A stretch of DNA of 64,000 nt from contig JAFGIY010000037.1 in the NCBI GenBank assembly GCA_016929335.1, positions 83,574-147,573 on the forward strand. The letters run 5' to 3'. The stretch comes from Acidobacteriota bacterium (GTDB taxonomy: Bacteria > Acidobacteriota > UBA6911). The notes under the pieces were generated by a model, which did no database searches, was not told the origin of the DNA, and saw only the letters and a list, made by a program, of their open reading frames with translations. Position 1 is the first letter of the stretch, and each line of letters opens with the position of its first letter. A program made the position numbers and the translations under genes. Positions 12,141-64,000 of the stretch are shown piece after piece.

Positions 12141-12887
12141 GTGAAAAAAGTGGTTCTTCTGAGACATGGAGAAAGCGTTTGGAACAAGGAAAATCTATTC
12201 ACCGGTTGGACCGATGTGGGACTCAGTGAAAAGGGCGTCCAGGAAGCAATCGAGGGCGGCAGAGTCCTGCGCGCTGAAGGATATATTTTCGATGTCGCTT
12301 TTACATCCGTGCTGAAGCGCGCAATCAAGACCCTATGGATCGCCCTGGAAGAAATGGACCTTATGTGGATCCCGGTTTACAACAGCTGGCGTTTGAATGA
12401 GAGACACTACGGCGCGCTTCAAGGACTCAACAAAGTGGCGATGGTGGACAAGTTCGGTGCGGCGCAGGTTCAGCTCTGGAGACGCAGCTATGATGTCCGG
12501 CCGCCGGAACTCGAGCCCGGTGATGAACGATCGCCCGCCAAAGATCCCCGTTATGCGGATCTCGATCCGAAGGACATTCCGCTTGCCGAATGTCTCAAGG
12601 ACACCGTGGCGCGTGTTCTTCCCTACTGGCACGAAGTCATCGTACCGGCAATCCAATCGGGGAAGCGGATCCTTGTCTCAGCTCACGGCAACAGCATGCG
12701 GGCTCTGGTGAAATATCTGGACAACGTTCCCGAAAATGAAATTGTGGGACTGAACATACCGACCGGAATTCCCCTGGTCTATGAATTCAACGACGATCTG
12801 ACGCCGATACGCCACTACTATCTCGGCGATCCCGAAGCCATCAGTAAGGCGGTGCAGGCAGTGGCGAATCAAACCAAGAAGAATTGA
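12141..12887 (+). CDS. gpmA: 2,3-bisphosphoglycerate-dependent phosphoglycerate mutase
   Basis: [57 protein letters not shown]. Confidence 0.97.
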
Positions 12888-12960
12888 CGATTTACGATTG
12901 ACGATTTACGATTGAAAACCAAAGTCGATGTTACCATTTGTAAATCGTCAATCGTCAATC
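12884..12960. repeat. Heptamer inverted-arm element
   Basis: Left arm ttgacgatttacgattgacgatttacgattg, core aaaaccaaagtcgatgttaccattt, right arm gtaaatcgtcaatcgtcaatc. Confidence 0.9.
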
Positions 12961-43417: not shown

Positions 43418-43460
43418 CCCATTTCCCCATTAGTAAGGGACTAATAATACCTAAAAGCAA

Positions 43461-43522
43461 TTCGAGATTCGAGATTCGAGATCAAAATCATGAATGAGCC
43501 TCCAATCGACAATCTCGAATCT
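43461..43522. repeat. Heptamer inverted-arm element (ttcgaga)n
   Basis: ttcgagattcgagattcgagat ... atctcgaatct. Confidence 0.75.
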
Positions 43523-45490: not shown

Positions 45491-45557
45491 GGATAAAGGG
45501 ATTGAGAGGGGTAAAGGGGCAGAGGGGTAGAGGGGTAGAGGGGCAAAGGGACAGAGG
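45491..45557. repeat. Octamer array (ggggtaga/ggggtaaa/ggggcaga)n, left arm
   Basis: ggataaagggattgagaggggtaaaggggcagaggggtagaggggtagaggggcaaagggacagagg immediately after the selB stop. Confidence 0.9.
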
Positions 45558-45560
45558 AAT

Positions 45561-45971
45561 TTAATTAATGGCTTTGGACCTGGTTCTCAAGCTGCGGATT
45601 AATGCATCGAGCATTCTGGTAACTTCCAGCAGCCTTTCAGCAATTTTTGCAGCCTTTTCTGATGTAAGGTATCCAAGACGATCAGCTAATAAAACCTGTG
45701 TTTCAAGCTCTGCGGCTGACCCTGAGGCAATTCGCAGAAATCGGATGTACTCGACTGTACTCCAGCGTTTGTATCCCTCAGCAATGTTATACGCTATCGA
45801 TCTACTCGTTTTACGAAGCTCCGAAGTGAGCCCATATAATTCATGTTTAGGAAATTCGCAGGAAACACGATAAATTCCCACTGACAAATCAAATGCCTTC
45901 TGCCAAACAATCAAATCCTTAAACGTCTTAACCGCGCATCCGCTCACATTCCGCCTCCTCATCACTATCAC
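45561..45971 (-). CDS. Four-helix-bundle protein (S23/intervening-sequence-protein type)
   Basis: VKTFKDLIVWQKAFDLSVGIYRVSCEFPKHELYGLTSELRKTSRSIAYNIAEGYKRWSTVEYIRFLRIASGSAAELETQVLLADRLGYL. Confidence 0.93.
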   Translation of the reverse strand: MIVMRRRNVSGCAVKTFKDLIVWQKAFDLSVGIYRVSCEFPKHELYGLTSELRKTSRSIAYNIAEGYKRWSTVEYIRFLRIASGSAAELETQVLLADRLGYLTSEKAAKIAERLLEVTRMLDALIRSLRTRSKAIN

Positions 45972-46043
45972 CTCTACCCCTTTACCCCTCTGCCCCTCTG
46001 CCCATCTACCCCTTTACCCCTTTACCCCTCTACCCCTTTGTAG
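45970..46043. repeat. Octamer array, right arm (inverted relative to 45491-45557)
   Basis: cacctctacccctttacccctctgcccctctgcccatctacccctttacccctttacccctctacccctttg. Confidence 0.9.
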
Positions 46044-58972: not shown

Positions 58973-59008
58973 AATCTTTGAGTCTTCGAGTCTTCGTATC
59001 TTTGAGTT
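58973..59008. repeat. Octamer array (tctttgag/tcttcgag)
   Basis: tctttgagtcttcgagtcttcgtatctttgag upstream of the amidase. Confidence 0.75.
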
Positions 59009-59023
59009 AATATCTACACCCAA

Positions 59024-60475
59024 ATGGAAAATAACGGCGATTTTACAATCCAAAAGCTTGCTCCACTGATTCGAGGCAAGAAATTATCTCCCGTCGAGCT
59101 TACCCGATTTTTATTGGAACGGATTTCGCGCTTTCAGCAAGAAATCAATGCGTACATCACCATCACTGCTGACACTGCCATGGCGCAGGCAGGAAAGGCT
59201 GAAAAGGAAATCTGTAAAGGCGATTACAGGGGCGTCTTGCACGGCATCCCTATCAGTTTGAAAGATCTGATTTATACCTGCAACGTGCGCACGACTGCAG
59301 GAGCAAAAATCCTACGAAAATTCGTCCCCAAAGAAAATGCAGAACTGGTGAATCGATTGCTGAAGACCGGATGTGTATTTCTGGGAAAAACGAATATGCA
59401 CGAATTCGCCTTTGGTGCCACAAACGTTAATCCTCACTATGGGCCCGTCCACAATCCCTGGGACAGGCGCTGCATCTCCGGAGGCTCAAGCGGCGGCAGC
59501 GCCGCATCCGTTGTTTCAGCCCAGGCTATGGGATCTTTCGGCACCGATACAGGCGGCTCCATCCGCATTCCAGCAGCAGCCTGCGGATGCGTCGGACTCA
59601 AGCCGACATATGGCAGAGTTCCCATGACCGGTGTTATTCCTTTGGCTGTCAGTCTCGATCATGCCGGTCCACTGAGCCGTTGCGTCATGGATGCAGCATT
59701 TTTATTTGAAGCGACAGCAGAACCAAACATATGGGGTTTCAATCCCAAACGGGCAGTTGCCGAAATCGGCAAAGGCATCAAAGATTTCCGGATTGGGATT
59801 CCTCGACAATATTTTTTTGATCGCCTCCAGCCTGCGGTGCGCCGAGCCGTCCTGGCTGCTGCCGCAGTTATTGAGCGGGCAGGCGCAAAAATCGTTGAGG
59901 TAAATTTGGCGGGGATGGACAAGACGGCACAACTGGCGGCCGAAATTACCGCAGATGAAGCCCTGGCTTATCATGAAAAATGGCTGGAGCAGAAATTTAA
60001 GGATTATGGGGAAGATGTTCGATCGCGCCTGGAGTTAAGCAGGAAAGCGACGGCAATTGCATATATACGCGCGCAGCAGGATAGACTTGCCTATTCAGAA
60101 GAAATGTCAAAGACATTGGAGGGCATTCATGTACTCCTGGCGCCGACGCTCCCGGTCGTAGCTCCTCTGATCGATGAGAATGAAGTCAGGATCGGAAGAT
60201 ACTGCGAAGACGTCCGTCTTGCTCTGCTGAGCCTTACTCGACCCGGCAATCTTTCCGGGCTGCCAGCCATTTCGGTTCCTTGCGGATTCTCTGCCGAGGG
60301 GCTTCCCATAGGCTTGCAGCTCATCGGCCGGCGATCCGGCGAAGCTTCGCTTCTGCGCGTCGCCTACGCCTATGAGCAAGCCACCCCCTGGCATCTACAT
60401 TTCCCCCCCGAAATTCAAAAGGAGAGAGGATTGGCGGGAAGCGGGAAGAAAAGGGGTAAAGGGGCAAAGGGGTAG
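59024..60475 (+). CDS. Amidase (amidase-signature family, GatA-like)
   Basis: GVLHGIPISLKDLIYT, GGSSGGSAASV, GSFGTDTGGSIRIPAAACGCVGLKPTYGRVP. Confidence 0.95.
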   Translation: MENNGDFTIQKLAPLIRGKKLSPVELTRFLLERISRFQQEINAYITITADTAMAQAGKAEKEICKGDYRGVLHGIPISLKDLIYTCNVRTTAGAKILRKFVPKENAELVNRLLKTGCVFLGKTNMHEFAFGATNVNPHYGPVHNPWDRRCISGGSSGGSAASVVSAQAMGSFGTDTGGSIRIPAAACGCVGLKPTYGRVPMTGVIPLAVSLDHAGPLSRCVMDAAFLFEATAEPNIWGFNPKRAVAEIGKGIKDFRIGIPRQYFFDRLQPAVRRAVLAAAAVIERAGAKIVEVNLAGMDKTAQLAAEITADEALAYHEKWLEQKFKDYGEDVRSRLELSRKATAIAYIRAQQDRLAYSEEMSKTLEGIHVLLAPTLPVVAPLIDENEVRIGRYCEDVRLALLSLTRPGNLSGLPAISVPCGFSAEGLPIGLQLIGRRSGEASLLRVAYAYEQATPWHLHFPPEIQKERGLAGSGKKRGKGAKG

Positions 60476-60615
60476 AGGAGGAAAGGGAAAGTGAAAATCT
60501 TGATTGGCGTTTTTCTTCTATGCTCATCCTTTATTCCCGTCCCTCCTACCCTTTGCCCCTCTACCCCTTTGCCCTTCCACCCCTCCACCCCTTTATCTCT
60601 TTTCCCCTTTCCCCT
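60448..60615. repeat. Octamer inverted-arm element without ORF (same unit family as 45491-46043)
   Basis: gaaaaggggtaaaggggcaaaggggtagaggagg ... ccctcctaccctttgcccctctacccctttgccc. Confidence 0.88.
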
Positions 60616-60640: not shown

Positions 60641-62275
60641 ATGAAAATAGCCTTGGCTCAGATTAATACGACCGTGGGAGATATTAAGGGCAATCGCGAT
60701 CTGGTTCTGCAGGTCATGGGAAAATCCCGGCTCCTGGGCGCTGATATTGCGGTATTTCCAGAGCTTTGTCTTACGGGATATCCTCCTCGTGACTTGCTTG
60801 GACTTCATGGCTTTGTCGAGTCGAACCTCCAGGCACTCCAGGAAATTGCAGCGTGTTCCGGATCCATGGCTGTAATTCTCGGCTTTGTGGACCGGAATCC
60901 GAAGAAGGAAGGACGCGATTTTTACAACGCCGCCGCGTTTCTTTGTAAAGGCAAGATTCAGGCTGTAGTGCATAAAACGCTTTTGCCTACCTATGACGTA
61001 TTCGATGAGGACAGGTATTTTGATAGCTCCGAGAGCATACAACTGGTGGAATTCAAGGGACGGACTTTGGGAATTTCCATATGTGAGGATGCCTGGAACT
61101 CGGAGTGTTTCTGGCCTAAACCCCACTATTCCACAGATCCGATTCGTACCCAGATCGAGATGGGCGCCAACCTTCTGGTAAATATTTCGGCATCTCCCTA
61201 TGAGATGGGAAAGCCCCGATTCCGATTTCAGATGCTTCTCGACCATGTCCAAAAGCACCATGTACCGCTCGCATACGTCAATCTTGTGGGAGGCAATGAT
61301 GACCTGCTCTTTGACGGCAACAGTCTGTTATTGGGGAAGAATGGAAATGTGATCGCGCAAGGATCGGGCTTTGCAGAAGATCTCCTGGTTGTCGATACAG
61401 AGTCAACCGATAATCGTGGCTATCATGAGAAGGAAAGCATGGATGATTTGTTTCAAGCACTTGTGATGGGCACGCGGGATTACGCCCGCAAATGTGGTTT
61501 CAAATCTGCCGTCCTCGGGCTCAGCGGCGGGATCGATTCTGCTATCGTAGGTTGCATTGCGGTTGAGGCGCTGGGCGCCGGCAATGTGCTGGGAGTGTCG
61601 ATGCCGTCCATGTTTTCCGCGCCCGAGAGCTATGAGGATGCCCGATCGCTCGCACATAATCTGGGCATGTGCTTTGATATGATCCCAATCAAGTCTGTCT
61701 ACGATGCCTTTCGCAAATCCCTTTCAGATATTTTTACCGGCATGTCTGAGAATGAAACTGAAGAGAACCTGCAAGCCCGTATACGAGGAACTCTCCTGAT
61801 GGCATTATCGAATAAACTGGGACATCTTGTGCTCAGCACAGGAAACAAATCGGAATTGGGCGCCGGATATTGCACTTTATATGGAGATATGGTCGGAGGA
61901 TTGGCCGTTATCTCCGACGTGCCCAAGACCATGATTTATAAGCTCGCCGCTCATATCAACAGGCACCGGGAAATAATTCCGCAAAATACCATCAAAAGAG
62001 CTCCTTCCGCAGAGCTGCGTCCCAACCAGAAGGATCAGGATACTCTGCCCGAATACGAAATCCTGGACGGGATTCTGAAGTCGCGCGTCGAAGAGCAGAT
62101 GAACATTGATGAAATCGTAGCGCAGGGATATGAGCGAAAGATCGTTGAAAAAGTGATACGAATGATTCAGGTAAACGAGTATAAGAGACGACAGGCTGCT
62201 ATCGGGCTCAAAGTGACTACTCGAGCCTTCGGAACAGGCCGCCGCATGCCCATTGCGATGAAGCTGAATCCGTAG
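60641..62275 (+). CDS. nadE: Glutamine-dependent NAD+ synthetase
   Basis: Nitrilase domain PELCLTGYPPRDLL, VVHKTLLPTYDVFDEDRYF; synthetase GLSGGIDSAIVGCIA, STGNKSELGAGYCTLYGDMVGG. Confidence 0.97.
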   Translation: MKIALAQINTTVGDIKGNRDLVLQVMGKSRLLGADIAVFPELCLTGYPPRDLLGLHGFVESNLQALQEIAACSGSMAVILGFVDRNPKKEGRDFYNAAAFLCKGKIQAVVHKTLLPTYDVFDEDRYFDSSESIQLVEFKGRTLGISICEDAWNSECFWPKPHYSTDPIRTQIEMGANLLVNISASPYEMGKPRFRFQMLLDHVQKHHVPLAYVNLVGGNDDLLFDGNSLLLGKNGNVIAQGSGFAEDLLVVDTESTDNRGYHEKESMDDLFQALVMGTRDYARKCGFKSAVLGLSGGIDSAIVGCIAVEALGAGNVLGVSMPSMFSAPESYEDARSLAHNLGMCFDMIPIKSVYDAFRKSLSDIFTGMSENETEENLQARIRGTLLMALSNKLGHLVLSTGNKSELGAGYCTLYGDMVGGLAVISDVPKTMIYKLAAHINRHREIIPQNTIKRAPSAELRPNQKDQDTLPEYEILDGILKSRVEEQMNIDEIVAQGYERKIVEKVIRMIQVNEYKRRQAAIGLKVTTRAFGTGRRMPIAMKLNP

Positions 62276-62377
62276 TCGGCAGTCGGCAAAAAAGTATATG
62301 AGCGAAATTATTGAAAATTTGGCAATTTTTATATTCGAAAAATATTTACTGCCGACTGCCGACTGCCGACTGCCGAC
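62273..62377. repeat. Heptamer inverted-arm element, copy 1 (tcggcag arms)
   Basis: tagtcggcagtcggca, AT-rich core 62288-62348, right arm (ctgccga)4. Confidence 0.92.
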
Positions 62378-62391
62378 CATTGGAGGATACT

Positions 62392-63831
62392 GTGGCGTAT
62401 ACGCGCGCTCTACTGACAGACTTTTATGAACTGACTATGGCTGCAGGATATCTCGAACAGGGGAAAGAGTCCGATACAGCCACTTTTGACCTGTACTTCA
62501 GACATAATCCGTTTAATGGAGGCTATGCGATCGCTGCCGGGTTGGAAGACGCTATTCACGCGGTGGTGGATGCAAGATTCAGCGAAGAGGATATCCATTT
62601 TTTAAAAGCTCTCAAATCATCCACGGGCAAGCGGATCTTCTCGGATAAATTCCTGAATTATCTTGCAGAATACAATTTTGGCGGCAATATCCGGGCTATT
62701 CCCGAAGGTTCAGTGGTGTTCCCTAATGAACCGCTGTTGCAGGCAAGCGGAAACCTTATTGAGTGCCAAATGGTTGAGACAGTGCTGCTTTGTCATATTA
62801 ATTTCCAGACGCTTGTTGCGACCAAAGCCGCCCGGATATGGGAAGCATCTCATTATGGTAATGTCGTGGAGTTTGGGCTGCGCCGCGCACAGGGACCGGA
62901 TGGGGCTTTGGGAGCGTGCCGTGCTGCCTTCATAGGAGGGACGGACAGCACATCCAATGTCCTGGGAGCCGCGCTTCTACGGATGCCTGCAAAGGGGACT
63001 CATGCTCACAGCTGGATCCAATCGTTCGGATCCGAGCTTGACGCTTTTCGCGCCTTTGCACGATCATTCCCCGATGAATGCATCCTTCTGGTAGACACTT
63101 ACGACACCCTGAAAAGCGGTGTGCCTAATGCGATCCTGACTGCCAAAGAGCTCGAGCAGAGAGGACATCGGCTCGTGGGCATCCGGATTGATAGCGGGGA
63201 TCTGGCGTTTCTGAGCCAGAGAGCGCGGCAGATGCTGGACCGGGAAAATCTGTCGTATGTAAAAATAGTCGCTTCCAACGAACTCGATGAATACATCATT
63301 TCAGACATTCTCGCCCAGGAAGGGAAAGTCGACATCTGGGGAGTCGGAACCAATCTGGTAACGGGCGCGGGGATTGGAGGCGGAGCCCTGGGCGGCATCT
63401 ATAAAATGGTTGAGCATAACGGCCAGCCCAAGATTAAATTAAGCGCCAATCCCGAAAAGATGACTAATCCGGGGATTAAAAAGATCATCCGGTACTATAG
63501 CGATGAAGGTCTGATGGAAGCCGACGCTCTTGCCGCCGATTGGGAGAATGCGGAAGCCCAGGGTGTCCTCATCGTCGATCCCAATAATCCTTTACGTCGC
63601 AAAAAGCTGGATTCGGCACGGCATACAGAACTACTGAAGACGATTGTAAAATCCGGAAGGATTGTATATGAGTTCCCTTCCATAGAAGAAATTAGGAACC
63701 ACCGGAAAGAAGAGCTCTCCCGGCTCCATGAAAGCCACAAACGGCTTCATAATCCTCATGAATATAAAGTCGGACTAACCTATGAACTGTGGCAGCAAAA
63801 AGAACACATGCTTAATCAGGCCACTGTTTAG
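62392..63831 (+). CDS. pncB: Nicotinate phosphoribosyltransferase
   Basis: LLTDFYELTMAAGYLEQG, FGLRRAQGPDGALGACRAAFIGGTDSTSNV, VGIRIDSGDLAFLS; GTG start at 62392 with ggagg upstream preferred over the called 62311 start. Confidence 0.95.
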   Translation: MAYTRALLTDFYELTMAAGYLEQGKESDTATFDLYFRHNPFNGGYAIAAGLEDAIHAVVDARFSEEDIHFLKALKSSTGKRIFSDKFLNYLAEYNFGGNIRAIPEGSVVFPNEPLLQASGNLIECQMVETVLLCHINFQTLVATKAARIWEASHYGNVVEFGLRRAQGPDGALGACRAAFIGGTDSTSNVLGAALLRMPAKGTHAHSWIQSFGSELDAFRAFARSFPDECILLVDTYDTLKSGVPNAILTAKELEQRGHRLVGIRIDSGDLAFLSQRARQMLDRENLSYVKIVASNELDEYIISDILAQEGKVDIWGVGTNLVTGAGIGGGALGGIYKMVEHNGQPKIKLSANPEKMTNPGIKKIIRYYSDEGLMEADALAADWENAEAQGVLIVDPNNPLRRKKLDSARHTELLKTIVKSGRIVYEFPSIEEIRNHRKEELSRLHESHKRLHNPHEYKVGLTYELWQQKEHMLNQATV

Positions 63832-64000
63832 TCGGCAGTCGGCGGTCGTTAGTCGGCAGTAAAAGTAAATGAGGGAAATCATTGAAAATTCGGAAATTTT
63901 GATATCTGAAAAATACCGACTACCGACTACCGACTACCGACTACCGACTACCGACTACCGACTACCGACTACCGACTACCGACTACCGACTACCGACTAC
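63829..64000. repeat. Heptamer inverted-arm element, copy 2, truncated by window end
   Basis: tagtcggcagtcggcggtcgttagtcggcagt, core 63861-63915, right arm (ccgacta)12+ from 63916 to window end. Confidence 0.93.

Follow-up and report, generated by a model that had tools for sequence, protein, structure and literature searches.

S23-type genes enclosed by inverted tandem arrays: a putative mobile element with dispersed gene-less relatives

Results

The window, which is the whole 64,000-nucleotide stretch of Acidobacteriota DNA that we analyzed, contains an element made up of an array, an ORF, and an inverted array (45491-46043, minus strand). It lies outside 23S rRNA, at a site between two protein genes, selB and a tatA-like gene. 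Its center is a gene for an S23 (23S_rRNA_IVP) four-helix-bundle protein (45561-45971, minus strand), which begins with a GTG at 45971 to yield 136 aa and has an ATG at 45962. On the left, a (GGGGYARA)n array detected by TRF with a period of 8 (AGAGGGGT; 45505-45557, plus strand) forms the 3' (downstream) arm of the gene, while the inverted octamer array on the right (CCTCTACC; 45971-46037, minus strand) forms the 5' (upstream) arm. The two arms pair in inverted orientation over 46 bp with a score of 31; for this inverted-arm score (IR) we used a threshold of at least 13, which is reached by ~0.4% of random positions. The TRF arrays and the inverted match bear out the sequence-only reading of this locus as an S23-type ORF amid inverted (GGGGTARA)n arms. 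Across the 6.5 Mb genome, the octamer pattern had 59 forward and 103 reverse matches, compared with 2 and 2 for a reversed control.

S23/IVP proteins are small, have no assigned function, and have been described chiefly from insertions within rRNA genes of bacteria. The window protein matched PF05635 with 118.4 bits (cut-off 33.8) and TIGR02436 with 112.3 bits (cut-off 24), and its best solved relative was XCC0516 of Xanthomonas campestris (2gsc, E 8e-23), which is reportedly a ring-shaped homopentamer. Relatedness to Avd was weak (39.6 bits with PHROG 3206; 28.3 bits with bAvd, missing the cut-off of 40). We recognized no nuclease or transposase motif in the S23 protein, and because its profile similarity is limited to PF05635 and weak bAvd/Avd matches, we do not claim that it is a catalyst. 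The PADLOC defense models gave no match to the S23 element, and a search for phages with XCC0516-like genes found none.

The sequence-only reading had also described an ORF-less counterpart at 60448-60615, and here too we found the same octamers, inverted, around a core of ~50 bp lacking an ORF. Repeat finding placed the left array at 60450-60487 (plus strand) and the right array at 60541-60615 (minus strand), with the core at 60488-60540. A second full-length copy of this element, core and arms together, is present in inverted orientation on contig C83 (C83:46590-46748, 86% over 159 bp), and another pair of unlinked loci has a different core in common.

This genome has four full-length S23 genes (TIGR02436 matches), each enclosed by inverted tandem arrays with a unit of its own: GGGGTARA in the window, and GCAGTCG, ATTCGAG, and ATTKACG elsewhere. 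The window holds ORF-less or solo arrays of all four units. In addition to the octamers at 60450-60615, there are inverted heptamers AGTCGGC / ACTGCCG at 62274-62377 (unit of the S23 gene on C83, L002), a solo ATTCGAG array at 43460-43482 on the plus strand (S23 gene on C188, L003), and ORF-less inverted heptamers ATTKACG / CGTMAAT at 12883-12960 (S23 gene on C209, L004). These three heptamer arrays are an addition to the earlier reading, which had left them unconnected. By a strict criterion the dispersed arrays are mostly solo, with 79/285 in inverted pairs. Enrichment for arrays of a genome's own units was weak (79% of own-unit vs 49% of other-unit comparisons were positive in 1.8 Mb from four genomes), a contrast that is weak because several units are common to multiple genomes.

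Other repeats were seen as well. Copies of an 8-bp family, TCTTTGAG / CTCTAAGA, are scattered through this genome (window 58975-58996 and L209:17027-17092), and its unit matches none of the four full-length S23 genes. At L209:1443-1932, inverted GTCGGCA arrays surround ~390 bp without an S23 ORF, with nested inverted repeats inside. In window 63830-64000, 12 tandem TACCGAC heptamers extend to position 64000, where contig C61 also ends; the assembly thus stops within an array, and likewise at other contig ends (C189, C212).

Array enclosure of S23 genes was then scored in other genomes. Within the window family, 12 of the 14 further full-length S23 loci that had sufficient flanking sequence at either end gave an IR of at least 13. 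The S23 gene was present in 144/297 genomes of a phylum sample, where 28/28 loci from 28 genomes reached the threshold, as did 19/20 in a three-genome set whose paralogues each have their own unit of 6, 7, 8, or 9 bp. When the phylum loci were pooled without duplicates, 44/45 were array-enclosed vs 4/322 other ORFs (90-180 aa, taken from 1.8 Mb of four genomes; p=5e-51). The enrichment for which the sequence-only reading had proposed a test is seen across genomes, and related S23 genes without arrays, which it had named as contrary evidence, are the exception in these samples.

Beyond the phylum, a protein-only scan by similarity to S23 proteins with an AGTGGY-type unit yielded 80 GTDB loci from phyla including Bacillota, Spirochaetota, Bacteroidota, Verrucomicrobiota, Omnitrophota, Chloroflexota, Pseudomonadota, and Synergistota. 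An IR of at least 13 was found at 62.5% of these vs 0.37% of 800 control positions from the same loci. Plasmid S23 genes (named cyanobacteria, Gemmatirosa, and Azospirillum) had inverted arrays in 10/10 cases, with scores of 12-31. The unit period was 7 at 100/121 S23 loci; the unit of the window element has 8 bp.

On three of the plasmids, those of Anabaena sp. 90 (L352), Pseudanabaena galeata (L356), and Picosynechococcus PCC 7003 (L357), S23 elements lie amid cas genes (cas6/cas4, cas6/cas4, and cas10/cmr3, respectively). A figure legend in PMC10910872 names '23S rRNA IVP' among CRISPR associations, and insertion into cas operons might account for the association given in that legend.

Most of the 80 multi-phylum loci have AGTGGTY-type arms, and one S23 clade retains AGTGGTY from Bacillota to Omnitrophota. 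Over 121 loci, 5'-arm similarity increased with the identity of the S23 proteins (Mantel rho 0.384, p=0.001), the effect within the window's own phylum being small (rho 0.137, p=0.001), and this covariation held only when arms were compared in matching orientation with respect to the gene. Judged from these loci, with shared ancestry partly controlled, unit sequence and orientation appear to track S23 relatedness, in agreement with the earlier suggestion that the array unit co-varies with protein clade. Octamer array matches are abundant in two genomes of the window family, G000 and G001, and an S23 fragment in G001, 69% identical to the window protein over 72 residues, is also octamer-flanked. 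A divergent S23 subfamily in the same family (KLDVY...; L043, L044, L050, L058, L061) has units of 6 or 12 bp, not 7 or 8.

The arms also end at a fixed place within the unit. The outer end of the 5' arm lay 0-1 base before AGTG[GA] in 43/51 AGTGG-type loci (chi-square against a uniform phase, p=2e-17), and the outer ends of the 3' arms had a similar register. Median arm lengths were 4.9 and 4.4 units. Within the AGTGG clade, target-site duplications showed no excess over shuffled flanks.

These results bear on a passive origin, in which slipped-strand expansion made arrays around any gene or S23 was a passenger caught amid pre-existing ones. Arrays of 6-9 bp units are indeed frequent (75-322 per Mb in sampled genomes), but the 4/322 other short ORFs enclosed, set against the 44/45 S23 loci, argue against such an origin, as do arms that are inverted rather than direct, the recurrence of a unit with its clade in different phyla, and the fixed end register. 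We consider it very improbable.

Sites without the elements were found in related genomes. In four congeners the selB-tatA gap is 77-113 bp and lacks the window S23 element, and in two other family members it holds arrays of other units. The gap of the ORF-less element is 21-56 bp, with no element, in four family members. We also surveyed the gap between two pyruvate dehydrogenase genes (pdh gap) in 41 genomes of another genus of the same phylum. In several genomes the gap was short and free of any element, one had a gene-less array, one had a same-clade S23 element, and two had an S23 gene, confirmed by profile, amid arrays of a different unit. Thus, the empty sites for which the sequence-only reading had suggested looking exist at both window sites and in the pdh gap. 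Other inserts of ~580-650 bp without an S23 match are present in the same gap of several congeners (L216, L217, L221-L224, L230), indicating that it is a general insertion spot.

One octamer element occupies the loop between two REP-like palindromes, and a different contig has an empty REP pair; elsewhere, a hexamer-array element adjoins a REP. A REP-like palindrome, GGGGACAGTCACCAGTGTCCCC, adjoins octamer arrays at four places (L010, L034, L195, L199). The element in the REP loop and some empty pdh gaps have the look of palindromic targets, and we considered such targets as a general rule; this was rejected, since outer flanks were no more complementary than shuffled pairs.

Arrays are found in intergenic, often operon-internal gaps, as might be expected if S23 served host regulation. 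On that explanation, a ring of S23 would bind arrays in mRNA or DNA in the manner of TRAP, autoregulation would account for its own arrays, and arrays would spread by duplication or recombination; the covariation of unit with clade and the ~5 units per arm fit it also. However, that whole elements may be present, absent, or replaced at a single gap points to mobility, as do the occurrence of one clade and its unit across many phyla and the dispersed copies with common non-array cores. We therefore regard a purely regulatory role as improbable.

At the level of whole genomes, (AGTGGNY)3-type arrays were present in 37/297 of the phylum sample, and 34/37 of these carry S23 vs 110/260 of the rest (p=3e-9). 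All 19 genomes with at least 5 such matches carry S23 (19/19), and the three array-positive genomes without an S23 match have an array at one place each. Apart from these 3/37 genomes, the sample does not show arrays distributed independently of any such gene, which the sequence-only reading had listed as evidence against itself. Both the co-occurrence and the covariation tests remove shared ancestry incompletely.

Candidate enzymes were sought in array-rich genomes. RVT_1 reverse transcriptase was not found in 8/17 array-rich, S23-positive genomes, indicating that a reverse transcriptase of this family is not generally present alongside the elements, and we rejected it as a general trans factor. 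In the window's own genome, RVT_1 matches fall on C26, C42, and C95, with none on C61, the contig that carries the window S23 locus. Y1 transposases were present in 17/17 array-rich S23 genomes but, among S23-negative genomes from the phylum, in 6/17 (p=9e-5). Both groups were hand-picked, and confounding by phylogeny and general mobile-element load is possible; we treat this co-occurrence as a lead, weakly supported. In the window's own genome, the Y1 genes lie outside the S23 element.

Lastly, the transcript of the window S23 element is predicted to fold as an extended stem that encloses the gene (-220 kcal/mol, z -7.4), and the ORF-less copy has a predicted RNA stem as well (z -3.85). Such stems are consistent with an element that moves as RNA: RNase III would excise the array stem, S23 would bind the RNA, and spread would proceed through cDNA made by a reverse transcriptase acting in trans. 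The relationship of S23 to Avd, an accessory protein of diversity-generating retroelements (DGRs), also favors this route, and in Coxiella an intervening sequence (IVS) with GACAGAT heptamers 5' of its S23 ORF is cleaved by RNase III at such a stem in vitro (PMC4990558). Against it stands the lack of RVT_1 in the 8/17 array-rich genomes, although the reverse transcriptase could have been lost after movement. We judge the RNA route unlikely, while ranking it above a purely regulatory role and below S23 recognition combined with a single-strand transposase supplied in trans.

Discussion

The sequence-only reading had compared the window's two octamer elements to RAYTs and REPs, and as a functional analogy this stands: in the REPIN/RAYT system a single coding element has many non-coding inverted partners at dispersed sites (for REPINs, PMC3116915), and S23 elements likewise combine one coding element with dispersed non-coding inverted partners that have common ends. 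The enzymatic half of the comparison does not. RAYTs belong to the Y1 (HUH) transposases, with REPs as short palindromic sequences, whereas the S23 element encodes a four-helix bundle and its ends are tandem arrays.

The 23S rRNA IVSs of Leptospira, Coxiella, and others resemble the window element in having an S23 ORF within stem-forming terminal inverted repeats. They differ in that the window-type elements lie in gaps between protein genes, have tandem-array arms with many different units, and possess dispersed ORF-less relatives, whereas IVSs are inside rRNA only according to the cited literature. Heptameric repeats are known too, among them GGGAATC in Xanthomonas, GGGGAYT in Nostoc, TAACTGA in Beggiatoaceae and Microcystis, and the cyanobacterial STRRs, and 70 inverted heptamer pairs have been described in Xanthomonas campestris (PMC4692102, PMC4679880). 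Like the arrays studied here, these are dispersed, intergenic tandem arrays of ~7 bp; unlike them, the published repeats are tied to no gene in the portions of these papers that we drew on. GGGAATC repeats and XCC0516, the solved S23 structure, come from the same Xanthomonas species. As for DGRs, S23 is related to their accessory protein Avd, but bAvd is below its cut-off and the window locus has no reverse transcriptase. Classical insertion sequences and MITEs differ from S23 elements, which, judged from the AGTGG clade, lack a target-site duplication.

The combination of a gene, clade-specific arms, and gene-less partners fails a defining feature of each mobile-element class tested. In the literature searched, which included few subscription papers or preprints, we found no paper linking S23 genes to the arrays; heptamer arrays and S23-bearing IVSs are each known, and their combination appears to be new within that literature.

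Taken together, enrichment, covariation, empty sites, co-occurrence, and the second ORF-less copy (86% over 159 bp) support the earlier interpretation of the window's two octamer elements as an autonomous/non-autonomous pair. The reading we favor, and think probably correct, is a mobile element in which S23 recognizes its own array, gene-less arrays are non-autonomous copies, and rRNA IVSs are copies that landed in rRNA. The S23 gene and its inverted short-unit arrays would insert as one unit, mostly at intergenic sites. The protein most likely recognizes its own unit, perhaps with one unit per subunit of the homopentamer, an inference in line with arms of ~5 units. With such recognition, S23 could work both on the arms of its own element and, in trans, on arrays that have the same unit but no ORF; the latter could then spread as non-autonomous copies. 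Joining would keep to a fixed register within the unit, with no duplication of the target. The enzyme that breaks the strands probably comes from elsewhere in the genome and works in trans; our leading guess, a tentative one suggested by the co-occurrence data, is a Y1 (HUH) transposase with a single-stranded hairpin as its substrate. Copies in 23S rRNA may be tolerated because RNase III excises the stem.

A wider proposal, to which we give about even chances, is that S23/IVP is the recognition part of a hitherto unrecognized, phylum-spanning class of mobile elements whose tandem-array ends a protein ring reads one unit at a time, that a large share of the unexplained 6-9 bp repeats in bacterial genomes are its non-autonomous copies, and that IVSs are its copies in rRNA. 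The finding connects three puzzles: the function of S23/IVP, the origin of 23S rRNA IVSs, and the commonness of heptamer repeats in bacteria. With many natural pairs of protein and unit at hand, the rules of recognition would be readable from sequence and directly testable.
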